A stretch of DNA of 44,872 nucleotides from Chthoniobacter flavus (GTDB taxonomy: Bacteria > Verrucomicrobiota > Verrucomicrobiia > Chthoniobacterales > JACTMZ01), in assembly GCA_945871065.1 (NCBI GenBank), contig CAMBUL010000014.1:1-44872 (forward strand). Reading direction: 5' to 3'. Under the pieces are notes generated by a model. The model saw only the letters and a list, made by a program, of their open reading frames with translations. It was not told where the DNA came from and made no database searches. Below are positions 2,608 to 36,737 of the stretch, piece after piece. Within the stretch, counting starts at the first letter, position 1. Each line of letters begins with the position of its first letter. Both the position numbers and the translations under genes were made by a program.

Positions 2608-3992
2608 ATCCGCCACCGGGCAAGCTGCACGACGCGCACCTTGGGCTGATGCAGTTGGTCGGGCAATGCTTTTGCATCGGCCCGCTCATCGATATTGCGC
2701 TTTTCCTCGGCATCGTGGCCGCCCTGGCCGGCGCGGTCGGCCCGCTCGCCGTCCTACTCGCCTCTTTGGGCATGATCGCTTTTTCCCTCGTTGTGGCATT
2801 TTACGCGTCGGAGACGGGCGGGGCCGGGGCGATGGGCGATTACATTGCGCGTGCTTGGGGCCGGACCGCCGGCCTTGCCGCCCTCGGGGTCTACGTGATT
2901 TCTTTGCTCTTCGCCGGAGCCGCGGGATTCACCATCGTGGTTGGGGACCTCGCCTCGCGTTTCGTGGAGCTTTATTTCGGGGTCGAGTTCCCGTGGTGGG
3001 CCGGTGCCCTGCTGGTGTGTGGAGCCGCGTGGTGGTTCAATGTCCGTGGGGCGGCCGCGGCCACCCAGGTCCAATTGCTCATCGTCGGCGTTTCGGTCAT
3101 CCCGTTCCTGCTCACCGCCGCCGCGGCGATCATCCATGCTGGTCCGGCCAACACCTGGTCGGTCTTCTCATGGAGCAATCCCCACGCCGGTGATCTTTTC
3201 GGTGCCTTGCTTTTTTGCATCCTGCTCTTCGGCGGATTCGAAACGGCGGGATCTCTCGCCGAGGAAACCGGCAATCCGCGCCGCAATATCCCGCGGGCGC
3301 TGGTCGGCACCGTGGTGGCCGCCGCCCTGCTTCTACTTTTCTGCTCCTATGCGGGGACGGTTTATTACGGACCGGACCGCGCGGCCAAGACCTGGGGCGA
3401 GGCGATCGACGGGTTCGCCGTGATGGGCGGGGAGTTGCTCGGGCCGTGGGCGGCGCTTTGGATCCGCGTGGCCGTGCTCGTTGATTTCACCGCGACCTGC
3501 ATTGGCTTCACCGTGGCAGCTTTGCGCGGCATTTATGCTCTGGCTCGCGAGGGCCGGTTGCCGTCGTGGCTCGCCGCGACCAACCGGCGTGGCGCCCCGC
3601 ATCACGCTGCGGCATTGGTCTTGGGCTGCGCCGTGTCGGTCGTGGCCTGCGGCTTGCTGGTGCCTGCTGCCCAGCGGTTCCAGACCCTTTTCGTGGCCGC
3701 CACGGCGCAGGCGCTCTTACTGGTCCTGGTTTATACCGCGCTGGCCTTGGGCGCATTGCGCATGATGTGGCGCAGCGGGCAGAAACAACCTTGGTGGCGA
3801 TGGATTGTTTTCCCCCTGGCCACGGTTGTCCCCCTCCTCGCCCTCTACGGCACCTTTGTTCCTTTCCCGGCCTATCCCGAGCGTTTTGGTTTGTATGCGG
3901 GACTGGCCGCCTTGTTCGCGGTGGGCTGCTGGGTCTGGCGCGTGCGACCACGGGTAGAATCGGGGAGTGAAAAACCGGCCGAGTCGGTCTAA
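2604..3992 (+). CDS. APC-superfamily amino acid permease
   Basis: About 462 aa and about 12 hydrophobic segments. The family pattern is visible in TM1 (CFCIGPLIDIALFLG), in the conserved SETGGAGAMGDYI stretch after TM2, and in FGGFETAGSLAEETGNPRRNIPRA in the middle (as in AdiC/YjeH-type transporters). It probably imports or exchanges an amino acid or polyamine; the substrate cannot be told. The start is taken as the GTG overlapping the previous stop. An ATG at 2649 is an alternative that would remove 15 polar residues. Confidence 0.88.
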   Translation: MNPPPGKLHDAHLGLMQLVGQCFCIGPLIDIALFLGIVAALAGAVGPLAVLLASLGMIAFSLVVAFYASETGGAGAMGDYIARAWGRTAGLAALGVYVISLLFAGAAGFTIVVGDLASRFVELYFGVEFPWWAGALLVCGAAWWFNVRGAAAATQVQLLIVGVSVIPFLLTAAAAIIHAGPANTWSVFSWSNPHAGDLFGALLFCILLFGGFETAGSLAEETGNPRRNIPRALVGTVVAAALLLLFCSYAGTVYYGPDRAAKTWGEAIDGFAVMGGELLGPWAALWIRVAVLVDFTATCIGFTVAALRGIYALAREGRLPSWLAATNRRGAPHHAAALVLGCAVSVVACGLLVPAAQRFQTLFVAATAQALLLVLVYTALALGALRMMWRSGQKQPWWRWIVFPLATVVPLLALYGTFVPFPAYPERFGLYAGLAALFAVGCWVWRVRPRVESGSEKPAESV

Positions 3993-16046: not shown

Positions 16047-16052
16047 GAAGTG

Positions 16053-16134
16053 TGCTCGGGAAGGGAGTCGAACCCTTACTCCTTACGGAACCAGATCCTA
16101 AGTCTGGCGCGTCTGCCAGTTCCGCCACCCGAGC
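16053..16134 (-). tRNA. tRNA-Leu (anticodon TAG), integration target of the element
   Basis: Class II tRNA with acceptor GCTCGGG/CCCGAGC, anticodon loop CTTAGGA within stem CCAGA/TCTGG, a long variable arm and T-arm AAGGG-TTCGACT-CCCTT. Its 5' half (up to the anticodon loop) is the left copy of the 43-bp att repeat, while its 3' half is chromosomal. The gene is complete, but everything upstream of its 5' end, including its promoter, now belongs to the inserted element. Confidence 0.95.
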
Positions 16135-16179: not shown

Positions 16180-16210
16180 TGAGCATACTCCCGCAAATTT
16201 ATTTTGCCAT

Positions 16211-16238
16211 TGTGCTACGGAGTGTGCTTCACTTGGCC
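16211..16238. repeat. Sub-terminal repeat, left copy (possible integrase arm site)
   Basis: A 28-bp stretch (tgtgctacgg followed by agtgtgcttcacttggcc) that recurs near the right end at 36460-36486 with one base missing. It contains two tgtgct units and lies directly before the integrase ATG, so it could bind integrase or autoregulate it. Inference only. Confidence 0.6.
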
Positions 16239-16239
16239 C

Positions 16240-17487
16240 ATGAGCACTCCTCGCAAAACCACCCGGAAAGTCACCCCCGAGACCAAGTTCGTTCCGGTCT
16301 TCCACAAGAACGGCCACCGCATTGAAGGCCTTTGGCAGCGCGGTTCCCGCTTCTACGGCCAGCTCCGAGTCCTCAAGAACGGGATAAAGCGGCCCACCAG
16401 AATCGCGCTGAGGGACGCCAACACCGTACCCCAAGCCGTGGAGAGGCTGGCCGAGGAGCGGCAGAAGAACCGCGAGGGCGAATTGGTGATCATCCAGCAT
16501 TCCCCCAAGCTAATCGACGCCATCAAGCAATACAAGGAGAGCACCAACTGGAAGCTCAAGCGGGAGGCGACCAGAGTAAGTGACAGAGGTTACCTGAACC
16601 GGTGGACCGTCGAGTTGGGCAACCAGAAGGCGGACAACATCCAACCGGCCATGATCTACGGCGTCCGCGACAAGCTCTTCACCGAGGGCAAGCACCCGAG
16701 GACGATCAACCTCTACGTGGGCGGACTTATGCAGGTGCTCCGCTTCTGCCATGAACGGGGCCAGCTCAAGCGTGTCCCCAAGATCGAGCGTCTGGAGGCA
16801 CCCAAGCCGCGCCGTCAGAGCTACTTCCCGGACCATCTGTTTGAGCAGCTCTTGGATAATTGCCGGCCCGAGGTGAACAAGAACGCGCCTCAGATGCGGG
16901 ACTTCCTCCGATTCCTCGCACTCACTGGAACCCGAGAGCAGGAGGCTACGGCCATCGCGTGGCGCGACATTGATTTTGAGGGCCGGCGCGTGGTGATCGG
17001 GGCGAACATGGAGACCAAGAACGGCGAGACCCGCGACCTCGACATGAGCGACGAGCTGATTGAGCTGCTCGCCGAGATGAAGGCTCGGCGGCAACCGGAT
17101 TCACAGTGGCTCTTCCCGTCTCCGCAACGGGGCAAGAAGGACGAGCACGTGAAGAACTTCCGCGCCTGTCTCAACGCCGTGCGCGGCACTCCGCGACCCA
17201 TCACCAAGGCGTGGAAAGGCCGGCGACCCAAGACCGAGGAGGTGAACAGTCAGCTCGCACACGTGGGCTTTCATACCCTCCGGCACCTCTTCATCTCCAA
17301 GTGCGTCATGGCCGGCGTCCCCTACATGACGATTGCCGAGTGGGTAGGCCACCAGGACGGCGGCGTGCTGATCGGCAAGGTCTACGGCCACCTCTGCAAA
17401 GATCACAAGGCGGACATGGCGAAGAAGCTCAGTCTCTTCAAGAAGCCCGAGAACGTGGTCGAGCTTCCACAACAAGCCGCCGGCTGA
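16240..17487 (+). CDS. int: Tyrosine recombinase (integrase)
   Basis: A 415-aa phage-type integrase that would catalyse site-specific insertion and excision at tRNA-Leu. It has a basic N-terminal arm-binding region, a SAM-like core-binding domain (about 95-185) and a C-terminal catalytic domain. Catalytic residues are Arg232 (TGTREQEA), Lys260 (METKNGE), His345-x-x-Arg348 (HTLRH), His371 (WVGHQ) and the nucleophile Tyr382 (GKVYGHL). All are intact, so it should be active. The ATG at 16240 is preferred over one 36 bases earlier because the extension is repeat sequence. Reading away from attL is the usual arrangement. Confidence 0.93.
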   Translation: MSTPRKTTRKVTPETKFVPVFHKNGHRIEGLWQRGSRFYGQLRVLKNGIKRPTRIALRDANTVPQAVERLAEERQKNREGELVIIQHSPKLIDAIKQYKESTNWKLKREATRVSDRGYLNRWTVELGNQKADNIQPAMIYGVRDKLFTEGKHPRTINLYVGGLMQVLRFCHERGQLKRVPKIERLEAPKPRRQSYFPDHLFEQLLDNCRPEVNKNAPQMRDFLRFLALTGTREQEATAIAWRDIDFEGRRVVIGANMETKNGETRDLDMSDELIELLAEMKARRQPDSQWLFPSPQRGKKDEHVKNFRACLNAVRGTPRPITKAWKGRRPKTEEVNSQLAHVGFHTLRHLFISKCVMAGVPYMTIAEWVGHQDGGVLIGKVYGHLCKDHKADMAKKLSLFKKPENVVELPQQAAG

Positions 17488-17698: not shown

Positions 17699-18916
17699 AT
17701 GGAAATTCTTGTCTTAATAGGAATCGTCGGCGCGATCGCCCTGTGGATCTGGATCACAGTGCTTAAAGACAGAGCCGGCAGATACACTGACCTTCGCAAG
17801 CAGCACGATGAGTTATGGAAAAAAGTCAGCGACATTGATGAATACGCCCGCATAATTAGAAACGAAGTTGCGCAAGAGCGCTCGGCGATGAGGACGGAAC
17901 TGGCCGCAGACCGCCTCAAACTCGATGCAAGGGAGCGAGCCTTAGACGAGCAGGTGGCAGCGGTTCAGAGGATTGCTACGGAGAAATCGGTTGGCTTCCC
18001 TTGGTTGGCTAAAGCATATGCGGATTTCTTTGCGCTCGAAGACGAGCGCATCGCGGACTCCTTGAAACGTAAGCAGAGGCCTGCGCGGAAATCCGCCGAA
18101 TTGGTTCAGGAGGCCAAGAGGAGGAGGCGCGATGCAGAGATCCGCGCAAGAGTCGCAGAGTACCAAATTCAATACTACGAATCTCTTTTCCCGTGGCTTG
18201 TAGACCTAAAGAGCGAAGACCTTGAGGACGCCGCTATCAGCCTAGCGGCCCCGGCAAACCTAGAGGGGGGCGCCGAGGAAGACCCCGCAAAACGGTGGCT
18301 TTCCGAGCAGGAATACGCCGCGATGCCTTCAGCGGAAAAATTCCAAAGGGCACTCGACAGATATTGGACGAGCAGAAAATCAAAATGGCAACTGGGTAGA
18401 GACTACGAGCGATACGTGGGCTGGCTATACGAGAAAGACGGCCACGCCGTCAGCTACCACGGAATTATTAAGGGCTTTGACGACCTTGGCAGAGACCTTT
18501 TAGCGACCAAGAATGGCGCTGTCCAAGTGGTGCAGTGCAAGTATTGGAGCAAGGAAAAGACCATCCACGAAAAACACATCTTCCAGCTCTACGGAACAAT
18601 GGTGGCTTACGGCCTCGATAACCCCAACGAACCTGTGAGCGGGCACTTTGTCACGTCAACATCCCTGTCTGACCGTGCCAAGAAGTTCGCAGAATACCTA
18701 GGTATCCACGTTACAGAGCAGCGGACGTTGGAGCGGTATCCTTGTATTAAGTGCAACATTTCCGAACGAACTCAAGAGAAGATCTACCACCTGCCTTTCG
18801 ACCAGCAATACGATTCAACGGTCATTGAGCCAGATCGTGGAGAATTGTTCGCTGCAAGCGTGGCAGATGCTGAGGGTCTTGGCTTTAGAAGAGCATTTAG
18901 GTATCGCGGCGCGTAA
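17699..18916 (+). CDS. Membrane-anchored coiled-coil protein with Mrr-like restriction endonuclease domain
   Basis: A 405-aa protein with three parts: an N-terminal transmembrane helix (residues 2-22), a long charged coiled coil (about 28-150) and a C-terminal PD-(D/E)xK nuclease of the Mrr_cat type. The nuclease shows Glu237 in GRDYERYVG, Asp266 in GRDLL and Gln279-Cys-Lys281 in QCKYW, with a HGIIKGFDDLGRD lead-in. The catalytic set is intact. Mrr-like enzymes cut modified or foreign DNA; anchoring to the membrane suggests that DNA is attacked at entry. The 211 bases upstream hold no recognisable gene. Probably defence cargo of the element. Confidence 0.8.
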   Translation: MEILVLIGIVGAIALWIWITVLKDRAGRYTDLRKQHDELWKKVSDIDEYARIIRNEVAQERSAMRTELAADRLKLDARERALDEQVAAVQRIATEKSVGFPWLAKAYADFFALEDERIADSLKRKQRPARKSAELVQEAKRRRRDAEIRARVAEYQIQYYESLFPWLVDLKSEDLEDAAISLAAPANLEGGAEEDPAKRWLSEQEYAAMPSAEKFQRALDRYWTSRKSKWQLGRDYERYVGWLYEKDGHAVSYHGIIKGFDDLGRDLLATKNGAVQVVQCKYWSKEKTIHEKHIFQLYGTMVAYGLDNPNEPVSGHFVTSTSLSDRAKKFAEYLGIHVTEQRTLERYPCIKCNISERTQEKIYHLPFDQQYDSTVIEPDRGELFAASVADAEGLGFRRAFRYRGA

Positions 18917-20821: not shown

Positions 20822-21234
20822 TCGAAATGCCGACCGTCTCTGCGGCAAGCTATTCCCTTCCAAGGGCCGATCCCGCCGCAATACCAACTCACCGAAACGC
20901 CGTCAGCATCCTACCTGCGGCGAACCGAATGGAACGTCCGCGATTCGGACGGCACGGTCATCTTCACGGTTGCCGCTGAGCTGGCCGGCGGGAGCAAGCG
21001 CACGGCTGACTTCGCGGAGAAACACGGCAAGCCGTGGCTGCACCTCAGTGAGCGCGGCAGCTACGAGAGCGCCGGTGAGCGACTGGCAGTCTTCGTCCGC
21101 GAGAATGACATTAAGGTACTCAACGTGGCGGGCAGCCGAGGGTCGAAGGAGCCGGGTGTGGCGGCGCTTGTGAAGCTGGCGCTGGATGATGCGTTTTATC
21201 CGAGGGCGGAGGCGATGGTGGTGCGGGGATAGCC
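20822..21234 (+). pseudogene. Remnant of a putative molybdenum-carrier (YpsA-like) gene
   Basis: The frame read from 20822 gives IPPQYQLTETPSAS, RRTEWNVRDSDGTVIFTVA, GGSKRTADFAEKHGKPWLHL and VLNVAGSRGSKEPGVAALVKLA, matching the middle and C-terminal part of the putative molybdenum carrier family (PF12694-like, Rossmann fold, usually about 150-170 aa). The N-terminal third, including the SGGQTGxDRxAL nucleotide-binding motif, is missing. A 2-base insertion (gcgc at about 21179-21182) shifts the frame: the expected ending LDDAFYPRAEAMVVRG is found in another frame, stopping at 21234. It is a decayed gene, not expected to work. Confidence 0.75.
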
Positions 21235-21240
21235 GCGAGT

Positions 21241-21272
21241 AGAGGTCCCGGGTTCAAATCCCGGCAGCCCGA
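21241..21272 (+). other. tRNA 3'-end fragment (T-arm and acceptor 3' strand)
   Basis: A perfect T-arm (CCGGG-TTCAAAT-CCCGG) followed by a 7-nt acceptor strand CAGCCCG, discriminator A and a short T-run. No matching CGGGCTG acceptor strand or anticodon arm lies upstream; that DNA belongs to the molybdenum-carrier remnant. A similar 3' end occurs on the minus strand at 44689-44715. Probably a scar of a past integration event. Confidence 0.7.
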
Positions 21273-21372
21273 TTTTCCGCACTTTGGGAAATCTTCTTCG
21301 GTCTGAGGAGGTTCGCGAGGATGCGGGGTTTCGGAGGTTTCGCAGTTCGCGGGGAGTTCGTGACGGGGCGCC

Positions 21373-21741
21373 TCATTTGGCCATCATAAATCTGAATCGG
21401 CATCGGTCTTGAGAGTCATCGATCCAGAAGCCCCATTCACCGTATTCGTAAAACTTCGACTGGGCGTCATCGTGGTCGGGAACTCGCACCAAGTGGCTGA
21501 CGAACTTGTCGTGGTCGGCCGAGTCAAAAGCGAACTTTCCTTCCGAACAGTTTGAGTCCAGATCGTTCTCCATAGCGATCTCCCGGCTTGAGGCGGGAAT
21601 GATCTCGGGAAGCCAGCCCCTGGCAAAGGGCGTGTCGGCCTCAGCCTCTGCTCTAGTAGAGTATGACAACCGCACTGATTCGTCGCATCCCACAAGCAGG
21701 ATCGCCGTGAGCGCGAGGATTGCGTTGGCGCATGAAATCAT
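21373..21741 (-). CDS. Cassette-borne lipoprotein of unknown function
   Basis: A 122-aa protein with a lipoprotein signal (MISCANAILALTAILLVGC, lipobox LVGC), then LSYSTRAEAEADTPFARGWLPEIIPASS and ENDLDSNCSEGKFAFDSADHDKF. The RGWLPE.IP.S.....NDLD.N...G.F.F pattern recurs in unnamed bacterial proteins. The ATG at 21741 lies 6 bases past the attC site at 21748-21934, exactly where a cassette ORF should start. No attC is visible after its stop, so this is the last, possibly truncated, cassette. Confidence 0.7.
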   Translation of the reverse strand: MISCANAILALTAILLVGCDESVRLSYSTRAEAEADTPFARGWLPEIIPASSREIAMENDLDSNCSEGKFAFDSADHDKFVSHLVRVPDHDDAQSKFYEYGEWGFWIDDSQDRCRFRFMMAK

Positions 21742-21747
21742 TTTTTC

Positions 21748-21934
21748 AGCGAACCCCAAGCTCAGCGACTCCGGGTTGGGGGCGCGGCTCTGAGCACGCC
21801 GGCGCATGGCGAAGGCGCGGGCTGTGCCGGGCTTCATGGCGGGCCGCACAGCGCGTGACTGAGCCGGTCGGATGAGAGCCGCGCGTGGTAACTGAACGCC
21901 AAAGCCCGAGGTTCGCTGCAGCGCATGGTTAGGC
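21748..21934 (-). repeat. attC site 1
   Basis: On the minus strand: R'' box GCCTAAC, then CATGCGCTGCAGCGAACCTC, and at the other end AGTCGCTGAGCTTGGGGTT with R' box GTTCGCT. The arms GCTGCAGCGAACCTCGGG and CCCGGAGTCGCTGAGC pair with a few extrahelical bases, as required for single-strand recombination. The 187-bp site has inner stems (GCGCGGCTCT/AGAGCCGCGC; CTGTGC/GCACAG). Confidence 0.8.
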
Positions 21935-21945
21935 GACTTTTGGAC

Positions 21946-22386
21946 TCACCTCACCCCGCCCGCTGCTTTTTCGGTGGTTCCGCTCTCGGCGCGCTCAACC
22001 GTTCCGACGATCTTGCCGCCGGGTTTGGTGATCGCGATCTCAACCGGCGCAGGCCGCCCCGTTCCGGCCATGACCGACACATTGAACACCTCGACTGCAC
22101 CCTCCATGCGAAGCGTCGGTCTCTTAATGTTCGACCTAGTCGTGATGATGGGCGCCTTCGTCTGCGGCACTGTGGCCTGCAATTGGTAGGTGCCCGCCTC
22201 CAGGTTATCGAAGGCGAACCTGCCAGCCTTGTCAGTCGCCGCGTGCATTGCCCGCCCGTCGGGCTTTTTCTGGACGATGATGTCAATGCCGGGGATCGGA
22301 TTTGGTGCTGATGCGCTGCCTTCCCTAAGGCCGAGAAAAACAGCCGCGATGACCGCGACTTTTGCTGCTGCGTGTGTGATTTTCAT
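21946..22386 (-). CDS. Cassette-borne exported protein with carboxypeptidase-regulatory-like domain
   Basis: A 146-aa protein with an N-terminal signal peptide (about residues 1-26) and a beta-sandwich of the carboxypeptidase-regulatory/SpaA type: GIDIIVQKKPDGRAMHAATD, KAGRFAFDNLEAGTYQLQAT. Such domains are extracellular modules without catalytic residues. The stop lies 11 bases from attC 1 and the start 55 bases from attC 2, so it occupies one complete cassette. Its function is unknown. Confidence 0.75.
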   Translation of the reverse strand: MKITHAAAKVAVIAAVFLGLREGSASAPNPIPGIDIIVQKKPDGRAMHAATDKAGRFAFDNLEAGTYQLQATVPQTKAPIITTRSNIKRPTLRMEGAVEVFNVSVMAGTGRPAPVEIAITKPGGKIVGTVERAESGTTEKAAGGVR

Positions 22387-22440
22387 AGGTTTGTTTGCTT
22401 TGGTTTGGTTATTGTGGATGTGGGTGATTGTTTCAGAGTC

Positions 22441-22566
22441 GCCTAACGACCAAGCTCAGCGACCGCCGCCGGAAACGCCCGGTCGGCTGCAACAATCGCT
22501 GCCAAATTACCTGAACCGACCAACTGCCCAGCGGGGCGGCGGTTCGCTGCAGCGCTCTGGTTAGAC
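22441..22566 (-). repeat. attC site 2
   Basis: On the minus strand the site runs from R'' GTCTAAC to R' GTTAGGC (126 bp); both boxes fit the consensus RYYYAAC...GTTRRRY. The L arms GCTGCAGCGAACCGCCGCC and GGCGGCGGTCGCTGAGC pair with extrahelical bases, and an inner GGTCGG/CCGACC stem is present. The TAA stop of the PEP-CTERM gene lies inside the R'' box. Confidence 0.88.
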
Positions 22567-23229
22567 GGCATTTTTCAATCTCCGTCTCCTTGTGGCTATG
22601 AAAACCAGCAAGCAACCTGAAAACAGTAGCGCATAGGCTGAAGGCTCTGGAACTGCCATGACCTCGATGCGCGTAATGTCCCACGAAGTTCCAGATGGGC
22701 CGCCCTGATAAACTCTGAGAGTGCGAATCTCGCTCCAGTCTGGCTCGGGCGCGTTCGGACTAAACCAAGCATCGGCTAATGACACCCAAGTATTCTGGTT
22801 GCCACCTTTCTCAAAAAGACCGCCTTGATCGAAGATGGACCATGAAGAGCCAAAGTGAGCAACCGTAAACCAAGAGTCAAAATCTGATGGTGCGTCTGTG
22901 CCACTGATGCGAATAGATGAGCCAGGCCCTAAGCTCAGACCGGTGATGTCGTACTCAAAGGAAACAAACGCTTGGGTGTTTGGCAAATTTCGGAGAGAAG
23001 CCATCCCGCTACCGATGTCGAGGGTCACTGACCCGATACCCGACTGTGCTTGGAATGTCACCTTCCGCTGCCCACCGTAAACACCAGATAAGCCGCTTGC
23101 AGTGTCGGTGATGCTTTGATTTGGCGCTGCGACATTGAAGTGGCGTGTGCCTTGAGAAAAATCATCAATCAGGGCGATCTGGGCCTGCGTGCCTGTGATA
23201 GCAGCGAGAAGCAAGAGTAGTGATTTCAT
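22561..23229 (-). CDS. Cassette-borne PEP-CTERM exported protein
   Basis: A 222-aa protein with a signal peptide (MKSLLLLLAAITGTQA), a beta-rich body (IDDFSQGTRHFNV; SFEYDITGLSLGPGSSIRIS; WFTVAHFGSSWSIFDQGG) and a C-terminal sorting signal: VPEP, a hydrophobic helix and the arginine cluster RRRR. This tripartite tail is recognised by exosortase, which cuts it and anchors or releases the protein outside the cell. The ATG at 23229 follows attC 3 by 35 bases. An earlier in-frame start would lie inside attC and was not used. Confidence 0.85.
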   Translation of the reverse strand: MKSLLLLLAAITGTQAQIALIDDFSQGTRHFNVAAPNQSITDTASGLSGVYGGQRKVTFQAQSGIGSVTLDIGSGMASLRNLPNTQAFVSFEYDITGLSLGPGSSIRISGTDAPSDFDSWFTVAHFGSSWSIFDQGGLFEKGGNQNTWVSLADAWFSPNAPEPDWSEIRTLRVYQGGPSGTSWDITRIEVMAVPEPSAYALLFSGCLLVFIATRRRRLKNAV

Positions 23230-23264
23230 TGGAGTGGTGACATGGTTCGTGGCGATGTGATGCC

Positions 23265-23379
23265 GTCTAACGTCCGCGACCACCAACAGCCGCTTGCTTC
23301 TGGCGCGACTTCTTGCGTAAGCAAGAATCGTGACAGAAGTCCCGAAGGGACGGCTGTTTGGTGCATCGCTCTGTTCGCA
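23265..23379 (-). repeat. attC site 3
   Basis: A 115-bp site. On the plus strand GTCTAAC begins it and GTTCGCA ends it. The arms GCGACCACCAACAGCCG and CGGCTGTTTGGTGCATCGC pair with extra bases on one side. The centre is a long imperfect hairpin ending in TTCTTGC-gtaa-GCAAGAA. The R box next to the upstream gene is degenerate compared with consensus. Confidence 0.8.
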
Positions 23380-23380
23380 T

Positions 23381-23854
23381 TTATTTGAAGAGAGTGGATG
23401 CGGCATATCTAGCAATCCAAATGAAGGCGACAATAAATGATATGGACAGCGCAACAATCTTGAGCTCGACGGAAGGGCCGTCTGATGGTCGCCTTGCCCA
23501 CTGAATCAAGAAAAACCCCGCAACAACGAGAACTGCACCTACATAGGTGTAAATGTGCTCAGTAGAGCTTTGCCAGAAATAGAGGAAAACAACAATGACT
23601 CCCGCAAGCTGAATTAGCCAACCAAGAATGATTGCTGGTCCGCGGCATATCTCCCGAATTCTGCAAAACAGTTGAGTCTTCTGTAGGGTTGGAACAATTA
23701 ACGATATCAGAATCAAAAAGCAGAATGCTAAGAAAGCATATAGCGCAATGCCCTTTACTTCCTCAGTATTGTCTTTCTTCGTGCAGGAAGCAAGAAGGGT
23801 GAAAACTAAAACGGGGATTGAGGATAAGCTACTTTTTAAGTTCTTTGTAAACAT
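23381..23854 (-). CDS. Cassette-borne lipoprotein/membrane protein
   Basis: A 157-aa protein with a lipoprotein-type N-terminus (FTLLASC) and then about four transmembrane helices (ALYAFLAFCFLILISLIV; AIILGWLIQLAGVIVVFLYF; YTYVGAVLVVAGFFLI; VALSISFIVAFIWIARYAA). The stop abuts attC 3. Base composition is clearly more AT-rich than the rest of the window, which points to a separate origin. It overlaps the upstream small gene by 26 bases. Function not recognised. Confidence 0.6.
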   Translation of the reverse strand: MFTKNLKSSLSSIPVLVFTLLASCTKKDNTEEVKGIALYAFLAFCFLILISLIVPTLQKTQLFCRIREICRGPAIILGWLIQLAGVIVVFLYFWQSSTEHIYTYVGAVLVVAGFFLIQWARRPSDGPSVELKIVALSISFIVAFIWIARYAASTLFK

Positions 23855-24059
23855 TCTTTATCCATCGAACAAGTGACACAAGATTCGGCAAAACAAAAAG
23901 ACCGATCACAATGCCAAAGATCAGCCATGGAATAGGTTCCTTTATCCAATCGGGAGGTAAAAAGTATCCTGCACCAAGTATCGCAATGATGCAGATTGTC
24001 CAAATGACAATTATCGGGATGGCCCCGGATTGACTCCTTCTATAGTTTGGTGACTTCAT
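23829..24059 (-). CDS. Small two-helix membrane protein
   Basis: A 76-aa protein with two hydrophobic helices (IPIIVIWTICIIAILGAGYF; WLIFGIVIGLFVLPNLVSLV) and a basic C-terminus. AT-rich like its downstream partner and overlapping it, so the two probably form one two-gene cassette. Twelve bases or more upstream a TGCGAAC box at 24077-24083 may be a degraded attC end. Function unknown. Confidence 0.5.
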   Translation of the reverse strand: MKSPNYRRSQSGAIPIIVIWTICIIAILGAGYFLPPDWIKEPIPWLIFGIVIGLFVLPNLVSLVRWIKNVYKELKK

Positions 24060-24207
24060 AAGGTGGATTTGTTTTTTGCGAACGTATAGTATACGACAGT
24101 TCGTTAATATTGGGTTTTACGACTGGTCGCATATTACCTGTAAGTGAGAGGCAGTTGTAAGATTAGCAGATGCTACGGTCAGCGATCATTTTGATTACTA
24201 CCGCTTT

Positions 24208-24477
24208 TCACGCAGCTTTCAAGGAGACTATCTCCAAAGCCTCCCTCACCAACTCCTCAAAGCAAAGAACAGACTCATTCTGCTGAATCTTTCTGACAAT
24301 CTTCTGCTTTACTGAGCCCAAAGACTCTTTCTGTCTGAGTCGGTAAACGAGTTCAATGTCGAGGTAGCCTTTTGCATCAACGTCTCGGAGGAGTAATTGG
24401 CTGGCAGCCAAGGTGATGACAGCTATGACGCGCGTTAACATTGCCGCCCACCACGCCCCGGCATGAAATACCGCCAT
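24208..24477 (-). CDS. Hypothetical small protein
   Basis: An 89-aa product (or 77 aa if it starts at the ATG at 24441, which puts a hydrophobic segment LTRVIAVITLAASQLLL at the very N-terminus). The rest is charged: YRLRQKESLGSVKQKIVRKIQQNESV. It is in the same orientation as the cassettes but no attC delimits it. The 148 bases to the next gene on the left hold only short palindromic AT-rich DNA. Not recognised; may not be a real gene. Confidence 0.35.
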   Translation of the reverse strand: MAVFHAGAWWAAMLTRVIAVITLAASQLLLRDVDAKGYLDIELVYRLRQKESLGSVKQKIVRKIQQNESVLCFEELVREALEIVSLKAA

Positions 24478-24558
24478 GGCGAAAGTCCGAAAGACCGAGC
24501 AGACGCCGCAACTTAATGCGTCATAAGGCGCGGTTGGCCTTCCATAGGGGCTCCGAAC

Positions 24559-25683
24559 GTGCCATCAAAGGGCTCGATAGTCCTAACTCAGATGGCCACC
24601 GATGCTCCAACTAAAGCTGCCCGCGAGATGGAACGAGCTCAAGCGCGTGCCATAAAGGAAGAAGCGCGGCGACTCAAAGAGGAGCAGAAGGAGCTGGCCC
24701 GCCAGGCAGCAGAGGCAGAGAGGAGGGCGGCCCAAGCTGAAGTCGAGGCTTTTGAGAGTCATCTCGGCGAGTTGACGGGCGCACACAGGGTCATGCCTCA
24801 GTTCTACAATTGGTCCGCCCAACACTTTTCGCTGCCACCCCACCCGCCGGTATTTCACACAAAGAACCACTTGCGCGAAGCGGTGGAAACCGCGCTTTTA
24901 ACGCAAGAATACGAAGGATTGGAAGGGCGGTTGAGCGTGGCATGGAGCAAGGACGAGCAGTGGTATTACGAAAGCTACAGCGCTTACGAGTTGCGATACG
25001 GACGATGGGCACGGCTAAAAACTCTAGCCCAAGAACTGCATGCGGGAGACGCGAACGCAGTGGTTAATGCTCATGCTGAGTTGGAGGCTCAAGGCTTCTC
25101 GCATGCCGGCACGGAAGGGCTAGTCCTGCAGCCGTGCGATGCTCGGCGGCTCTATGTTGCGCTGCGTGTAGCGGGACGTGATATAACGCCGGGAGAAGTC
25201 AAAACACTCACCCAATCCGGTAAAGTAGCGGTAAAAACGATGGCCAAAAACCGTGCACGCGAAATCTACGAAGATTACGTATGCAGTAGCTGCCTTGCAG
25301 TCGCTCGCCGCTTATTCGGCACTCTTCCGCTGGCCGAAATAATTGTCACTGCGTACGTCCCCAGCTTGAGCGCGATTAGCGGGAATGAGACCGACGTGTC
25401 CATTGCATCAGTTCACTTTACCAAAAAGAAATTTGGTGCCTTGAACTTCGACAACCTAGACCCGTCAGACGCGCTGCAGAGCTTCCGGCATGCTGGCGAC
25501 ATGCGTGCCTCGCGAAGGGGCGAAGACTTTACTCCGATCCGACCGTTAGCATTTGAAAGTGTAAGCCAAAGCGAGTCGCCAGCAGTAGAGGTTCAGTCAC
25601 TCACCGCCCAAATCAAGGCACTGCGAGCGGCCTTCAACAAATTTCAAATCAAAAGCAATCGGACCATTGCTACTGCCCCTTAA
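24559..25683 (+). CDS. Coiled-coil protein of unknown function, partner of the membrane nuclease
   Basis: A 374-aa cytoplasmic protein. Residues about 12-70 are a highly charged coiled coil. A globular part follows with YNWSAQHFSLPPHPPVFHTK, DEQWYYESYSAYELRYGRW and, near 230-310, YEDYVCSSCLAVARRLFGTLPLAEIIVTAYVP and SIASVHFTKKKFGALNFDNLDP. No known catalytic motif was recognised. It stops 14 bases before the DUF4041-like nuclease gene, so the two are probably co-transcribed and may act together. An internal ATG at 24592 is an alternative start. Confidence 0.6.
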   Translation: MPSKGSIVLTQMATDAPTKAAREMERAQARAIKEEARRLKEEQKELARQAAEAERRAAQAEVEAFESHLGELTGAHRVMPQFYNWSAQHFSLPPHPPVFHTKNHLREAVETALLTQEYEGLEGRLSVAWSKDEQWYYESYSAYELRYGRWARLKTLAQELHAGDANAVVNAHAELEAQGFSHAGTEGLVLQPCDARRLYVALRVAGRDITPGEVKTLTQSGKVAVKTMAKNRAREIYEDYVCSSCLAVARRLFGTLPLAEIIVTAYVPSLSAISGNETDVSIASVHFTKKKFGALNFDNLDPSDALQSFRHAGDMRASRRGEDFTPIRPLAFESVSQSESPAVEVQSLTAQIKALRAAFNKFQIKSNRTIATAP

Positions 25684-25697
25684 ACCTCTCAAGAATA

Positions 25698-27446
25698 ATG
25701 CAACTCACAATCGCCATTTTCATCGTTGCGCTAATCGCAGCTGTAATCGTCCTTTACTTGCTGAAAAACAGAGCGGACAAGAAACTCCGTGCTGCTCAGA
25801 ATAGTTGCAAGGCCGAGCTTGACGCCGTAAACGCGCGCTACGCCGAGGACGCACAACGCATTCAGCAAGACTACGCACAGAGACTTGCTGCCTTGGAAGA
25901 AGAAGCAGGAAAAATCCGAGTGCACTACGAGGAGGCGGCGCGGCAGGCACAGGAAGCTTCACAAGAAGCACTAACAAAAGCGCAAGTTGAGCTAGCAAGT
26001 CTCAGTAAATATGCGGACCTGCGCGATGCTGAGGCCGAGGTCGCTGCCCGACTAACGCAAGCAATCGCAGACGCCGAAGCCCTGTATGCGGAGGCAACGG
26101 CTTCGGTCGAAGCTGCAAGCCAAATTGCCAATTTGGAGAAGCGCGAGGCGCAGGAGCGGGCGCGTGAGATTTACAGCCAAGCAGAAGCTTTGATGGTACA
26201 AGCCAACAGCGATGCGGGCAAACTACTGGCTGCCGCTGAAGCGCGCGCCCATGAAGTCGGTGGAGAGGCCTACGAGGCTCTCCAGAGCAAGGTTGCTCTC
26301 GACCAAGCGGTCCGGGCGATCAGCAATGTTATTGATGGCTACGGCGACCGCTACGTCGTGCCCACACACAGTGCAATCGACGACCTAGCGGCCGACTTTG
26401 GCCACCTCGCTGCTGGTGAGTCGCTGCGCATAGCACGGGAAAACTCCCGCCAAATGGTGCTTAGGGGCGAGGCCGCTGCCTGCGACTACGCCGAAAGTGA
26501 GCGGAGAACAACAGCCGTACGGTTCGTGATAGATGCCTTTAACGGGCGCGTAGAGGGCGTATTGAGCCGCGCAAAGCACGACAACCATGGAACGTTGGAG
26601 CAGGAAATTAGGGACGCCTTTGCGCTGGTCAACCTGAACGGGGTCGCCTTTAGAAACGCGCGGATTCAACAGCTTTATTTGGATGCACGGCTGACCGAGC
26701 TTCATTGGGCAGTCGCTGCTCAAGAATTAAAGCGCAAGGAACGCGAAGAGCAGCGCCAGATTCAGGATCAGATCAGGGAGGAGGAAAAGGCGCGGCGGGA
26801 CTTTGAGCGTGCCCAACAAGAGGCCGCCCGCGAGGAGGAGCTGATTCGCAGAGCAATGGAGAAGGCACAAGAACAGGTCTCGCAAGCAACCGAGGAGGAG
26901 CGCCGAAAGATTGAGGCACAACTTGCCGAGTTGCAGCAGAAGCTGACCGAGGCAGAGGCGAAGAGCCAGCGGGCGCTGTCGATGGCTCAACAGACCCGCG
27001 CCGGCAACGTTTACATCATCTCAAACGCGGGGTCGTTCGGGGATGACGTGCTGAAAATCGGCATGACCCGACGCCTTGAGCCTTTCGACCGGATCAAAGA
27101 GCTTGGCGATGCTTCCGTGCCGTTTGAGTTTGATGTTCACGCCATGATTCGCAGTGATGATGCCCCGACACTGGAGCGCGAGATGCACGCCGCATTTGAA
27201 GACCACCGGCTTAACAAAGTGAACTACCGTAAGGAGTTCTTCCGTGTGCCGCTGCAGACGGTCCGAGAGTTCGTTGCGATGCGACAGCTTGAGGCGACAT
27301 TTACCATGACTGCTGAAGCCCGCGAATATCGGGAGTCCGTGGCATTGGCCAAAATGACTCCTGAGGAACAGGCGCGCTACCACATCAGCGAAGATAGGGG
27401 GACGGCGAGTGCTAGAGTATTGGCGGCGGCCATGGATCTGGGCTGA
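25698..27446 (+). CDS. Membrane-anchored DUF4041 / GIY-YIG (T5orf172-type) nuclease, SNIPE-like
   Basis: A 582-aa protein with an N-terminal transmembrane helix (residues 3-22), a long coiled coil (about 25-205), a DUF4041-like central region (about 205-345, VRAISNVIDGYGDRYVVP through IQQLYLDARLTELHW), a second coiled coil (345-430), and a GIY-YIG-type nuclease: NVYIISN (Tyr439), KIGMTRR (Arg458), EREMH (Glu495, His497). TM-DUF4041-GIY-YIG is the architecture I recall for SNIPE, a phage-defence protein reported to cut incoming phage DNA at the membrane; that is from memory and not checked. It is co-transcribed with the preceding coiled-coil gene. Confidence 0.8.
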   Translation: MQLTIAIFIVALIAAVIVLYLLKNRADKKLRAAQNSCKAELDAVNARYAEDAQRIQQDYAQRLAALEEEAGKIRVHYEEAARQAQEASQEALTKAQVELASLSKYADLRDAEAEVAARLTQAIADAEALYAEATASVEAASQIANLEKREAQERAREIYSQAEALMVQANSDAGKLLAAAEARAHEVGGEAYEALQSKVALDQAVRAISNVIDGYGDRYVVPTHSAIDDLAADFGHLAAGESLRIARENSRQMVLRGEAAACDYAESERRTTAVRFVIDAFNGRVEGVLSRAKHDNHGTLEQEIRDAFALVNLNGVAFRNARIQQLYLDARLTELHWAVAAQELKRKEREEQRQIQDQIREEEKARRDFERAQQEAAREEELIRRAMEKAQEQVSQATEEERRKIEAQLAELQQKLTEAEAKSQRALSMAQQTRAGNVYIISNAGSFGDDVLKIGMTRRLEPFDRIKELGDASVPFEFDVHAMIRSDDAPTLEREMHAAFEDHRLNKVNYRKEFFRVPLQTVREFVAMRQLEATFTMTAEAREYRESVALAKMTPEEQARYHISEDRGTASARVLAAAMDLG

Positions 27447-28536: not shown

Positions 28537-28920
28537 ATGGACACATATTCCATGCAAACACACGAAGTACCACACGCACCGTTCACTCCTTCCACGCTGT
28601 TTGGCGTCACGGAGTCGGGCGAAGATACAGGCATTGTCCCCGGTCTGATGGCCTTGGACAAATTCATCGAAGGCATCGGCGTTACCCGCGAGACGCTCGT
28701 TAAGTGGCGCCGGCAGGGGCTGCTTGAGACCTGCAACATCTACGGCCGACTCTACGTCACAACGGAGGAGGTGTTACGTTTCAAGCGCAGGGTCATGTCC
28801 GGCGAGTTCGCCAAGTGCATCAAGCGCCCACAACGGGAGCAGCAGCTGGCGGACATTGCCGGCGAGGACAACGACAATGCGGAGTGCGCCTCGGCGGATC
28901 TCGTAAGGGAGGCACGATAA
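28537..28920 (+). CDS. Small helix-turn-helix DNA-binding protein (excisionase/MerR-like)
   Basis: A 127-aa protein with a winged-helix/MerR-like motif in the middle: ALDKFIEGIGVTRETLVKWRRQGLLET followed by the wing NIYGRLYVTTEEVLRFKRRV. Proteins of this size and type act as excisionases or as regulators of replication genes in integrative elements. The stop overlaps the ATG of the replication protein (TAATG), so translation is coupled and the two act in one module. It may bind the nested palindromes just upstream or the repeats at the element ends. Confidence 0.75.
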   Translation: MDTYSMQTHEVPHAPFTPSTLFGVTESGEDTGIVPGLMALDKFIEGIGVTRETLVKWRRQGLLETCNIYGRLYVTTEEVLRFKRRVMSGEFAKCIKRPQREQQLADIAGEDNDNAECASADLVREAR

Positions 28921-31900
28921 TGCACGCCACCGTGGATGGGCCACCGGACAACCTCCTCGACGCTGCAAGGTTCTACCGTGAGCGCCACGGATGGGCCGTA
29001 CATCCCCTGCATGGGCCGGCCGAGGGCAGCGAGAGGGAGAGAGGCAAGAAGCCCAAGTTGGCCGGCTACAACAAGCCGGACTACCAAGGATTGGACACGG
29101 ACGCCGCACTGGTGGCCGCATTCGGTAACGGCAAGGGCAGCAACCTCGGCATCGTGGTGCGTCCGCCCCATGTGGTGATCGATCTCGACAGCAAGAGGGA
29201 CGCCGGCGAGAGCGTCCGCGCATGGCTGGCCGAGCGGCCCGAGCTGGCGGAAGTGCCACGGGAGCGCACGGCCGGCGGGGCGCACCTACACTTCATCTGC
29301 AGGGACGCGCCCAAGCTCGACGGTGGCAAGCAAGTGGAGCAGCTCAACGAGTTCGTCACGGCGGAGATCTTTACGGGTCCGAGCAACATGGTGATCAGTC
29401 CGAGCGTCCACCCGAGCGGCCAGCGTTACGCATGGGAGGTCTTCCGCGAGGACTTCCCCGAGGTGCGCTGGCAGTTCCTGGTGGAGACATTCAAGGCGCC
29501 GGTGCAGGCACGGTCGAAAGGTCGCGGAGACGTGACTACGCTCGACGTGGAGGCATTTGCGAGGGATCTCGGCATCTATGGCCGGCGGATTCCGGGCGTG
29601 GACAACTTGGGGCGAGTTCGCCACACGATACAATGCCCGTGGCATGAATTGCACACGCTCAAGGGGACGGCACGTGAGTCCGGCACGGTGCTCTTTGAGC
29701 CAAAAGATGGTGCTCCGCCGGCCTTTGATTGTCAGCACGCGCACTGCCAGACCAAGACGATCAGTGACGTGATGAGGTGGGCTGAGGAGCAGAAGCACGG
29801 AGTGATCGACGCGCACTGTGCCAAGCAACAGGACAGGCCGGCGCACACGCCACCGATCACCACGATAGACGGCAAGCCGGCGCTCATGCTCCCGTGCGAC
29901 GATTGGACGATAGGACAATTCTCAGACCAACTTGGGCGCATCCTCTCGGCGTCCGGCGTCTACGAGCGCAGCGGCATACCCTTTACGGTCAACGCGACCA
30001 CGCACCAGTGCGAGCCGGTCACGGCGGACTTTCTGCGAACATGGGCGGAGAACTCCGTGGCGTGCTTCACAACACGGGGACACGGGCGCAACGAGTTCAA
30101 GGTCTGCAAGACCATGAGCATCGACACGGCACGGGCCGTGATCGCCTCACAGCAATTCTCCAAGCACCTCAAACCCCTGTCGCACGTTGCAATGGTGCGG
30201 ACGCCAGTCCTACGGGCAAGCGGCGACATTGTGCTACGGCCTCGGGGCTACGACCAAGAGTCCCAAGTCTACACGGCCACGGACGCCATCGATTTTGACG
30301 AGCACATGGACTTCCCCCGAGCCAAGCAAGTGCTCGACGATCTCCTCAAGGAGTTTCCGTTTGCGGAGGACGGCGGGAGGAGCAGGGCCGTGGCGATCTC
30401 CGCCATGCTGGCCGTCTACGGCAACGGTCTGATCACCGCCGGCGCCACCCGCCCGTGCTTCATCTACCTCGGCAACATGGAGGGCAGCGGTAAGACCCTG
30501 CTCGCACGCATCGCGGCGCTACCCTACGGCAATGTCCCGGTAACGGGCGGCCCATCGAAGGACGAGGAGTGGGACAAGCTGCTCCTGTCCATCGTGATCG
30601 GCGGCCGGCGCATCGTGATCTTTGACAATGTGCGCGGCCACCTCGCCAGCCAGCACCTTGAGCGGTATCTGACGAGCAGTAGCTACTCCGGGCGCATCCT
30701 TGGGGTCAGTAAGGAGTTTGAGGGCGAGGCCGGCGCTATTGTCTGCATCACCGGCAACCGTCTGACCGTCTCGCCGGATCTCCGCCGGCGCTCCCTTTTT
30801 GTGGAGCTATTCTGCCATGAGCTTTCCGCCGAGCGGCGAAGGTTCACCCGCATCCTCGATGAGCCAGCACTGACCAAATTGAGGCCGGACGCGCTGGCCG
30901 CGCTCCACGCTCTCGTGCGCCACTGGGACAGCAAGGGGCGGCCTCCGGGGCGCAACAAGCACGCCAGCTTCCCGAGATGGGCCGAGGCCATCGGCGGCAT
31001 CATGGAGGCGGCCGGCTACGCAAACCCCTGCCAACTCCCCGTGATCGATGACATGGGCGACACGGACGCCGCAGACATTCAGACCCTCTGCTCCATGATG
31101 CCGGTGGGGAAACGCTTTGAGTTCTCCGATCTGGCCGAGCTGTGCGTCGAGCATGGGTTGTTTGAGCGGGTCACGGAGCGGCGGGACGGTGAGGATCTCG
31201 ACAAGGCGGCCAAGACGGCGCTCGGGCGGGTTCTCAAGGGCTACCATGCCCGAACCACGGTGGCCGGACCTCCCGCGCTACACTTCCTTGTCCAGGGTAA
31301 GGGACACTCACGGTTCTTCACGATGAAGCCCGCCACCGGCGTACATGATCGACATGATCAACATGATGGTATCGCCAATAATGAAAACACACAAAACCCC
31401 CATAAGCCGCAGGATCATGTTCATCATGCTGATCATGCACCGGACAACACGAATAACGTGAAGTTAAGCACTCAAACCCCACCTGCACCCGTTCGCTACG
31501 TCTACGTCACGTCCCAGGATGTGCTGGCCGAGATCGCCCAAGACCTCACCAAGGCCGACAAAATGCTGGCCTTGGATCTGGAAACCTACGGGCAAGACCC
31601 GCTTAATCCGCGCAAAGGTGAGATCCGCACGCTTACCGTGGCTCGCCGGGGCGGAACCCCGTGGATCATCGACCTCAAGGCCATCGGCTACGACCTCGGT
31701 CCGGTCAAACAGGAGCTGCTCAAGCGTCCCCTAATCATCCACAACGCACGCTTTGACTTGGGCTGGCTGGCCGAGAAGCTGCAGATCCGGCCCATTGGCG
31801 TCGATACGTTGTCCCTCTCCCGTCTGCTCACGGCCGGCACGAATGACGGTAATGACCTCGGTGCAGTGCTCAAGCGCCACCTCGGTGTTGATGCACCCAA

Positions 31901-33197
31901 ACACCTCGGCCGGTCCGACTGGGGTGGTATGATGCTGTTTGAGGATCAACTTGAGTACGCCGCACGGGACGTGGCGCATCTCCATGACCTCGGCGGCAAG
32001 CTGGCGTCCGAGATCAAGGCCGCCGGCATGATGGACGTGATGAGTCTGGAAATCCATGTCCTGCAGGTGGTCCGCAACATGACCGCTACCGGGTTCGCCG
32101 TGGACGTGGGGAGGCTCGGCGCAATCAACACCAGGGCCAGCGCAGAGGCGGGCACGGCAGCCAAAACCCTGCAGGGAAAGCTCGGCCCGATCAACATGGC
32201 CTCTCCCAAGCAGCTGATGAAGGCACTCAAGGGCGCCGGTCATGGCGTGGAGAGCACGGACAACGAGGCGCTGCAGGGCATTAAGGACAAGGAGCTGGCC
32301 GCCGGCATCATAGCCTACCGCGAGTCCGAGAAGCTGGCACAACAGGCGCAAAGTCTGCTCGACGCCACCCACAACGGGCGCATCCATGCGGACTACGATC
32401 CAACCGGCACGGCCACGGGGCGCTTCTCCTGCAAGCGGCCGAATCTGCAGAATGTTTCACGGGGCGAACTGCGAGACTGCTTCATCGCATCCCCCGGCAA
32501 GCTGCTTGTGGTCTGCGACTACTCACAAGTCGAGTTGAGGCTGGCGGCGTACATAGCCAAGGACGAGAGAATGCTGACCGCCTTCCGTGACGGCATCGAT
32601 CTGCACGCTGCCACGGCGGCCATCGTGTTGGACAAGGCGCCGGCTGACGTGACCAAGCAGGACCGACAACTCGCCAAGGCGGTCAACTTTGGCCTCATCT
32701 ATGGGCAGTCCGCCCGAGGTCTGGTGCGCTACGCAAAATCCTTGTACGGCGTTGAGCTGTCCGAAAAACGGGCGCACGAGATCCGCGACAGGTTCTTCCG
32801 GGCGTACGCCGGCCTCGCACGCTGGCACAAGGTGGCAACACAGGATGCCCGAGGATTCGTAAGCGCAGAGGCGCGAACCCTGCTTGGCCGGCGACAGCAA
32901 CTCCTCGACGGCGACTGGTGGCCGCGCTTCACCCGTCTGGTCAACACGCCGGTGCAGGGTACGGCGGCGGACGGCATCAAGAAGGCGCTGGTTCGCCTCG
33001 CTCAGGCACTACCCGTGGGCGCACAGGTGGTGGCAACGATCCACGACGAGATCGTGGTCGAGTGTGAGGAGGCACAAGCGCCGGACGTGCTCGCCATGAC
33101 CAAGACCACGATGATCGAAGGCATGGCGGAGATCGCCAAGGACTGTCCAGTGGAAGTTGAGGGCGGCGTTGGTAAGACTTGGGGGTCCGCCAAGTGA
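28920..33197 (+). CDS. Fused PrimPol primase - AAA+ helicase - DEDDy exonuclease - family A DNA polymerase
   Basis: A 1425-aa replication protein. (1) Residues about 10-220: PrimPol domain with VIDLDS (Asp88, Asp90) and AHLHF (His122, His124). (2) About 235-280: Cys/His cluster (Cys239, His242, Cys271, Cys276), possibly zinc-binding. (3) About 470-720: AAA+ domain with Walker A NMEGSGKT (Lys525), Walker B RIVIFDN (Asp569) and sensor/arginine region CITGNRLTVSPDLRRRS. (4) His/Asp-rich linker about 800-850. (5) About 880-1030: 3'-5' exonuclease, LDLET (Asp886, Glu888), NARFDLGWL, YAARDVAHL. (6) About 1040-1425: PolA-type polymerase, motif A CDYSQVELR (Asp1200), motif B Arg1249/Lys1253/Tyr1261, motif C HDE (1375-1377). 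Every key residue seen is intact. GGGAGG lies upstream of the start. Confidence 0.92.
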   Translation: MHATVDGPPDNLLDAARFYRERHGWAVHPLHGPAEGSERERGKKPKLAGYNKPDYQGLDTDAALVAAFGNGKGSNLGIVVRPPHVVIDLDSKRDAGESVRAWLAERPELAEVPRERTAGGAHLHFICRDAPKLDGGKQVEQLNEFVTAEIFTGPSNMVISPSVHPSGQRYAWEVFREDFPEVRWQFLVETFKAPVQARSKGRGDVTTLDVEAFARDLGIYGRRIPGVDNLGRVRHTIQCPWHELHTLKGTARESGTVLFEPKDGAPPAFDCQHAHCQTKTISDVMRWAEEQKHGVIDAHCAKQQDRPAHTPPITTIDGKPALMLPCDDWTIGQFSDQLGRILSASGVYERSGIPFTVNATTHQCEPVTADFLRTWAENSVACFTTRGHGRNEFKVCKTMSIDTARAVIASQQFSKHLKPLSHVAMVRTPVLRASGDIVLRPRGYDQESQVYTATDAIDFDEHMDFPRAKQVLDDLLKEFPFAEDGGRSRAVAISAMLAVYGNGLITAGATRPCFIYLGNMEGSGKTLLARIAALPYGNVPVTGGPSKDEEWDKLLLSIVIGGRRIVIFDNVRGHLASQHLERYLTSSSYSGRILGVSKEFEGEAGAIVCITGNRLTVSPDLRRRSLFVELFCHELSAERRRFTRILDEPALTKLRPDALAALHALVRHWDSKGRPPGRNKHASFPRWAEAIGGIMEAAGYANPCQLPVIDDMGDTDAADIQTLCSMMPVGKRFEFSDLAELCVEHGLFERVTERRDGEDLDKAAKTALGRVLKGYHARTTVAGPPALHFLVQGKGHSRFFTMKPATGVHDRHDQHDGIANNENTQNPHKPQDHVHHADHAPDNTNNVKLSTQTPPAPVRYVYVTSQDVLAEIAQDLTKADKMLALDLETYGQDPLNPRKGEIRTLTVARRGGTPWIIDLKAIGYDLGPVKQELLKRPLIIHNARFDLGWLAEKLQIRPIGVDTLSLSRLLTAGTNDGNDLGAVLKRHLGVDAPKHLGRSDWGGMMLFEDQLEYAARDVAHLHDLGGKLASEIKAAGMMDVMSLEIHVLQVVRNMTATGFAVDVGRLGAINTRASAEAGTAAKTLQGKLGPINMASPKQLMKALKGAGHGVESTDNEALQGIKDKELAAGIIAYRESEKLAQQAQSLLDATHNGRIHADYDPTGTATGRFSCKRPNLQNVSRGELRDCFIASPGKLLVVCDYSQVELRLAAYIAKDERMLTAFRDGIDLHAATAAIVLDKAPADVTKQDRQLAKAVNFGLIYGQSARGLVRYAKSLYGVELSEKRAHEIRDRFFRAYAGLARWHKVATQDARGFVSAEARTLLGRRQQLLDGDWWPRFTRLVNTPVQGTAADGIKKALVRLAQALPVGAQVVATIHDEIVVECEEAQAPDVLAMTKTTMIEGMAEIAKDCPVEVEGGVGKTWGSAK
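31343..31439. repeat. Inverted cluster of 9-bp repeats within the replication gene (candidate origin)
   Basis: Three direct 9-bp units (acatgatc/g, starts 31343, 31352, 31361) and, 44 bases on, three units in inverted orientation (gatcatg-type, starts 31413, 31422, 31431). The spacer is AT-rich (aataatgaaaacacacaaaa) in otherwise GC-rich DNA. The units encode an HDR/HDQ/HDG and HVH/HAD linker between helicase and exonuclease domains, so a protein-level reason is also possible. Confidence 0.6.
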
Positions 33198-36601: not shown

Positions 36602-36644
36602 TCCTAAGTCTGGCGCGTCTGCCAGTTCCGCCACCCGAGCGATA
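36602..36644. repeat. attR (43-bp core repeat, right)
   Basis: Exact copy of 16096-16138. It leaves a 5' half of tRNA-Leu (minus strand, ending in the anticodon loop) next to the chromosomal upstream region of that tRNA, which holds an ATATTATCCTG -10-like sequence at 36650-36660. Confidence 0.95.
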
Positions 36645-36737
36645 GATCAGGATAATATCAGGCAACGGGCCCCTGGCGAGGGTGGAGCTTGGTTGGGTTT
36701 GACTTACCAGCGGGCCCGGTGTTCCGGGGCGGCCGCA

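Follow-up and report, generated by a model that had tools for sequence, protein, structure and literature searches.

An attI-led cassette array without a neighbouring integrase gene on a tRNA-Leu element of Chthoniobacter flavus

Integrons are usually described as a single attI site beside a single integrase gene (intI), and cassette arrays that lack intI as debris. The stretch of DNA analysed here, contig C14 of the Chthoniobacter flavus genome G000 (44,872 bases, hereafter the window), carries such an array with a genuine attI at its head, and it is therefore an attI-led array without intI and not a bare cluster of attC sites lacking integron integrases (CALIN). Functionally it amounts to an integron array that lacks the enzyme. 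With moderate confidence, we interpret stand-alone attI sites of this kind as docking sites that are served in trans by one integrase (IntI), the one in the window being carried on a mobile island. G000 is a 2.53-Mb draft of 120 contigs (95% complete, 0.6% contamination), and the comparison set consists of 213 genomes of the same order, which are draft metagenome-assembled genomes. An earlier note, written from the letters of the window alone, had described an array of three attC sites in a tRNA-integrated tyrosine-recombinase element; the recurrence of the attI module on its own at several loci of related genomes is absent from it.

The attI site and its cassettes

The head of the array is a 75-bp segment that shares 97% identity with attI in a complete integron on C23, another contig of G000, where it is bordered directly by an intact intI (2545-3891) on one side and by the first cassette on the other. 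The wider match reaches 95% over 91 bp (window positions 24075-24165). The segment also adjoins intI in the related genomes G008 and G005, and in all three genomes it ends at the crossover base. In the window, 24083 is the last attI base and 24082 the first cassette base. The right limit that the earlier note had given to the array is exactly this crossover base, but the attI that begins there was missed, so that the label of a CALIN-type array stands for the three attC sites and the lack of intI and falls for a plain CALIN. Specifically, the array shares with a CALIN its three attC sites and the lack of any IntI above cut-off on the 44.9-kb contig, and it shares with a complete integron the attI at its head, while intI beside that attI is missing.

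IntI proteins were called with TIGR02249 at a cut-off of 265 bits. The window contains no intI over this cut-off, as the earlier note had claimed, and tblastn gives no intI remnant beside its attI. The sole G000 protein above the cut-off, at 419.7 bits, is the C23 IntI, which supplies the intact gene that the note had advised looking for elsewhere in the genome. Residues 135-448 of this protein align with the solved Vibrio IntI4 (2a3v), IntI-specific insert included, and the aligned part contains what we take to be the HxxR and Tyr motifs. The protein also has about 130 extra N-terminal amino acids with a weak second SAM-like match, outside the IntI4-aligned part. A third attI of G000, on C76, adjoins the 5' piece of a broken intI (premature stop and truncation). 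The three G000 copies do not differ in the attI bases next to the array, and the window copy has private substitutions on the intI side, which indicate that its stand-alone flank was not copied from either C23 or C76.

The attC sites were scored with our own covariance models, R1 and R2, in place of the published IntegronFinder model. Because circularity had to be avoided, R2 was held out, being built from 13 sites of G004, G005, G007 and G008 and from none of G000. The array, read from its head, is composed as follows (ORF, open reading frame).

24083-24157, minus strand: stand-alone attI, 75 bp
23271-24082, minus strand: cassette 1, 812 bp; bounds from the attI and attC crossover bases; its start TTCGCA pairs with its own R'' TGCGAAC
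24059-23832 and 23854-23381, minus strand: ORFs of cassette 1, 76 and 157 amino acids, the latter membrane-like
23265-23379, minus strand: attC site C, attC of cassette 1 and R' of cassette 2; R2 64.6 bits, E 8e-15
22447-23270, minus strand: cassette 2, 824 bp
23229-22561, minus strand: ORF of cassette 2, exported protein with a weak PEP-CTERM match
22441-22566, minus strand: attC site B, attC of cassette 2; R2 48.7 bits, E 1e-10
21754-22446, minus strand: cassette 3, 693 bp
22386-21946, minus strand: ORF of cassette 3, carboxypeptidase-regulatory-like domain, PF13620
21748-21934, minus strand: attC site A, attC of cassette 3; borderline, perhaps damaged at R'
21373-21741, minus strand: ORF past the last attC, without a recognisable attC of its own
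21232-21372, plus strand: 3'-end fragment of a tRNA-Pro with about 100 bp, at the far end of the array

All three attC sites are genuine. They share one orientation on the minus strand and have R and L arms, and each separates the stop of an ORF on that strand from the start of the following ORF, as the earlier note had proposed, and covariation, held-out scores and the cassette starts bear this out. In an alignment of 18 sites from G000 and four relatives, which includes all three window sites, 87.3% of the stem cells are paired against 30-36% in slid versions, and cells changed on both sides number 67 against 24.0 in shuffles. Sites C and B score high with R2, whereas site A is borderline by the model alone (partial fit 15.9 bits, E 0.04 in the window; full site 19.6 bits, E 0.03 in 333 kb). 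The outcome that the earlier note had named as refuting it, scores below threshold at all three sites, thus did not arise. Over 174 bp, site A is 94% identical to a stretch of G040, a genome of another family (G040:C117:70563-70736), in which R2 gives five strong attC sites of the same orientation; its R' (3') junction is about 3 nt shorter than in the G040 copy, and the site may therefore be damaged. Compared with shuffles, the bottom strand of site C folds clearly better (z -5.7), whereas the advantage of A is moderate (-2.6) and that of B weak (-1.5). Crude arm-pairing scans of the window ranked the sites 1, 3 and 6, and 1, 2 and 4 after rescoring, but did not separate them from chance, which is why covariance models and the pairing of cassette starts described below were used. 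Site C is 83% identical to an attC of the intI-bearing array in G008.

The cassettes can be delimited by a further property. When a circular cassette is inserted, its R'' still matches its own first bases, which now stand at the previous junction. Across 27 sites at 9 loci, 122 of 189 R'' positions pair with the beginning of the cassette to which they belong, against 73 for the start of the neighbour; shuffles average 74.5 with a maximum of 98, and 0 of 10,000 reach 122. Every row was kept in this test, including two poorly anchored rows of locus L067 that weigh against the rule. All three window sites follow it: for B and A (cassettes 2 and 3) the pairing extends over 10 of 10 nt, for C over the 7 nt of the R box, the pairs of R'' and own start being GCCGTCTAAC/GTTAGACGGC, GTCGCCTAAC/GTTAGGCGAC and TGCGAAC/GTTCGCA.

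The array region has matches in 70 of the 213 genomes of the order (G000 included), and the matches listed fall on the three attC sites and none on the ORFs. No relative was thus found that carries the ORFs together, a finding that would have counted against the earlier note; since two candidates were scored per genome, the missing ORF matches elsewhere are weak evidence. A covariance-model scan of the window found no attC below 21373, and the ORF at 21373-21741 may be either a fourth, truncated cassette that has lost its attC or the original right flank of attI. The tRNA-Pro fragment next to it belongs to a module with a 136-bp, 85% match on another contig (C72:7944), 0.9 kb from an intact tRNA-Pro(ggg) (C72:8862), and may represent either a scar left by the att site of another element or a dispersed repeat. 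Elsewhere in G000, model R1 gives further attC sites on C28 (two), C2 (three) and C24 (one; L099-L101). The attI search was negative on these three contigs, which hold plain CALINs next to an attI-led array in the same genome.

Stand-alone attI sites in related genomes

An 86-bp attI query over the 213 genomes, with intI status assessed by tblastn with the C23 IntI, found attI at 17 places in seven genomes: three in G000, four each in G004 and G005, two each in G007 and G008, and one each in G010 and G092, the last of which belongs to another family. Intact or contig-cut intI stands at 3 of the 17 places (C23, G008 C46 and G005 C33) and broken intI at four (C76, G004 C1:184774, G005 C42 and G010 C19). 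The remaining ten show no intI homology, although two of them are weak matches of 44-47 bp. Cassettes with attC follow the stand-alone attI at G007 C36, G004 C23, G007 C71 and G008 C52, whose sites went into building R2. In G092 the attC after the stand-alone attI is weak (19.5 bits), with own-start pairing of 9/9 nt by inspection. Separately, C-terminal intI fragments occur in G004 and G010 (L082 6080-6372, L083 5738-6030 and L075 4112-4298). Judged from sequence, intI has been broken repeatedly in the genus.

The stand-alone attI sites are conserved beyond their surroundings. Between G007 and G008 the attI cores are 86% identical, against 57% for the adjoining 75 bp, and among G007, G004 and G092 the attI reaches 87-88% and the flank 54-66%. 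The comparison of G007 with G005 is less clear (78% against 57%). Integrons of the C23 type have, furthermore, shuffled their cassettes: the first one on C23, a signal peptidase, matches the one in fourth place in the G008 integron at 95% identity.

The most informative case is a locus beside a gene that we presume, from the look of its protein and not from a family search, to be topA. Here G004, G007 and G008 have 3.6-3.8 kb of left flank in common (83-93%) without intI, and the right flank, orthologous and likewise free of intI in these three, is found also in G005. Between attI and that flank the genomes carry different inserts: G007 has one cassette, G008 apparently two, G005 a further insert and G004 a degenerate stretch. 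These differences favour loading in trans, short of proof, since differential loss from a larger ancestral array could give the same pattern. A topA locus lacking attI was not found in G002, G003, G009 or G010 (in G010 and G002 topA and the right-flank gene are not neighbours, and in G003 and G009 a contig break separates the two), so that an insertion of attI alone could not be shown.

The carrier element and the competing explanations

The array lies within a 20.5-kb element whose features support the claim, made in the earlier note, of a tRNA-integrated tyrosine-recombinase element.

16052-16134, minus strand: tRNA-Leu (anticodon tag), the integration target; ARAGORN, Rfam RF00005
16096-16141, no strand: left copy of a 46-bp direct repeat, in the 5' half of the tRNA-Leu gene
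16204-17487, plus strand: tyrosine recombinase of the element, 427 amino acids; PF00589 69.8 bits, PHROG integrase
36602-36647, no strand: right copy of the 46-bp direct repeat, 98% identical, the end of the 20.5-kb element

Four relatives have the long left flank. In G007 and G004 the left and right flanks are contiguous with the repeat in a single copy, which identifies the array as cargo of the element; direct repeats are thus accompanied by an unoccupied site in two of these four relatives. In G008 and G010 the tRNA-Leu is followed by other DNA. At the G008 tRNA-Leu (L115), unrelated DNA begins after 39 bp of the repeat and a piece of the right flank lies further on, and this is probably a different insertion in the same target.

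The available data are compatible with a model in which the 75-bp attI and three, perhaps four, cassettes travel without intI as cargo of the tRNA-Leu element. The IntI of the C23 integron would recognise, in trans, the window attI as well as the attC sites in their folded bottom-strand form. Circular cassettes would be inserted at G^TT (24083/24082) and excised by attC x attC recombination, again in trans, and the recombinase of the element would then carry attI and cassettes jointly between genomes. The element presumably still moves, and the window array would have been loaded in trans rather than before a local loss of intI. In a wider and more tentative version, one IntI might serve attI docking sites across the chromosome and its islands as a distributed integron, and the attI module might itself spread, within the genus and into the family of G092, perhaps as the end site of attI-type cassettes that went into secondary sites.

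Several observations weigh against this model. The earlier note's suggestion of an integrase in trans gains plausibility from an intact IntI on C23 beside a nearly identical attI, but the action of this IntI on the window attI is something we infer. For the window, acquisition in trans and acquisition in cis followed by loss of intI are indistinguishable, and the broken genes at 4 of the 17 attI places indicate that such loss does occur here. One stand-alone attI of G004 is decayed (67-70% against 48-65% for the flank). G007 has stand-alone attI sites with cassettes and no intI over the cut-off in an 88% complete assembly, and no intact intI was found in G004. A scan of 23800-24560 for sigma-70 promoters and terminators gave none, leaving the attI region without a detected promoter. 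In draft metagenome-assembled genomes with identical array-side attI bases, an assembly join inside the repeat is, furthermore, conceivable.

The strongest rival states that the element once held a complete integron, that cassettes were gained in cis, and that a later deletion of intI at or near its start codon left a frozen relic. The broken intI genes, C76 among them, fit this account, as do the damaged look of site A and of the array end and the decay of some stand-alone attI copies. On the other hand, no significant intI DNA (46 of 500 shuffles score as high) and no IntI protein likeness lie beyond the window attI, the topA locus lacks intI in three species and yet differs in cassette content, and attI is conserved far beyond its flanks. 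In the same decay test, the G004 copy at the topA locus (2/500) and the G005 copy on C20 (8/500) scored better than the window, so that intI may have decayed at those two places. On balance, we consider a relic less likely for the window than service in trans, although it deserves more weight than any other rival.

An assembly chimera, with array and element fused through the attI repeat of a different integron copy, would be suggested by the three copies of this repeat in the draft G000, the other two of which are near contig ends; it is very improbable given that the independent assemblies G004, G007, G008, G005 and G092 also have stand-alone attI with private flanks and that the window attI has its own substitutions on the intI side. 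The idea that this is a plain CALIN, its 75-bp head being a transcription signal or resembling an attI by chance, can draw on the abundance of CALINs and on the poor description of attI outside class 1 integrons in the part of PMC9024848 consulted, but it is barely credible, as in three genomes this segment stands next to an intact intI, in the place of attI, and each time stops at the crossover base, and first cassettes at stand-alone copies follow the own-start rule (by inspection in G092). Provided that the C23 segment is an attI, the position and the identity of the head already refute the view that it is none.

As to the element itself, its recombinase is not an IntI (TIGR02249 only 26.7 bits against the cut-off of 265). 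A second recombinase of G000, on C89 (L023, 844-2148), stands beside a tRNA-Leu(taa) (2213-2297) and is 53% identical to that of the element over its C-terminal part. The element encodes a T5orf172 and DUF4041 protein with a strong PD-Lambda-1 match in PADLOC (25698-27446; 2e-108) and an Mrr-type endonuclease (17699-18916), and it may also be a defence island. A 1460-amino-acid fusion protein (28815-33197) starts with a primase-polymerase domain, followed by a middle region and by a family A DNA polymerase that includes an exonuclease, and is possibly the replication protein of the element. Rfam at gathering cut-offs reports only the two tRNAs in the window. Viral contigs gave no exact attI match and no relative of two element proteins, and plasmids gave no match to the array.

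Comparison with known systems

The window array differs from a CALIN in keeping a full attI at its head, as several relatives do at unrelated loci, and it has the same type of attI and attC as the complete integron on C23, which, in contrast, has an intact intI directly beside attI. In the portions of the literature consulted, CALINs are said to be mobilisable in trans (PMC9668308; PMC12444791) and attI outside class 1 goes undetected by IntegronFinder (PMC9024848).

Two published systems come close. Delta-attI-type cassettes of class 1 and 2 integrons contain an attI detached from intI that is recombined by IntI1 (PMC12901181), and they resemble the window in using an attI sequence away from intI as a recombination site. 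There, a partial and rarely complete attI follows a cassette ORF within an integron, whereas here a full attI heads an array without intI. In the Shewanella prophage M16-3, a CALIN in a mobile element has an attI of its own that matches the attI of a complete integron there (PMC9892861), and the likeness lies in an intI-less array within a mobile element whose own attI matches that of a complete integron. In M16-3 one prophage holds the complete integron as well; here the intI gene is found on a separate contig, and attI sites without it recur at several chromosomal loci and in several species. As such, an attI-led array without intI has a precedent. A literature search found no conserved, recurrent stand-alone attI module and no carriage of such an array by a tRNA island with intI elsewhere, although phrase searches were noisy and absence from print is not established by them.

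A family of conserved attI sites without intI, bearing different cassettes per species at one locus, constitutes a natural test of whether IntI acts on distant attI sites on an evolutionary time scale. An attI on a mobile island would, furthermore, let the island gather cassettes in each host with a compatible IntI and carry them on. Like tRNA-integrated islands with a tyrosine recombinase in general, the element has its recombinase beside a tRNA gene and is bounded by direct repeats, and relatives have the site unoccupied; it differs in that its target is the 5' half of tRNA-Leu and its cargo includes an attI-led cassette array.

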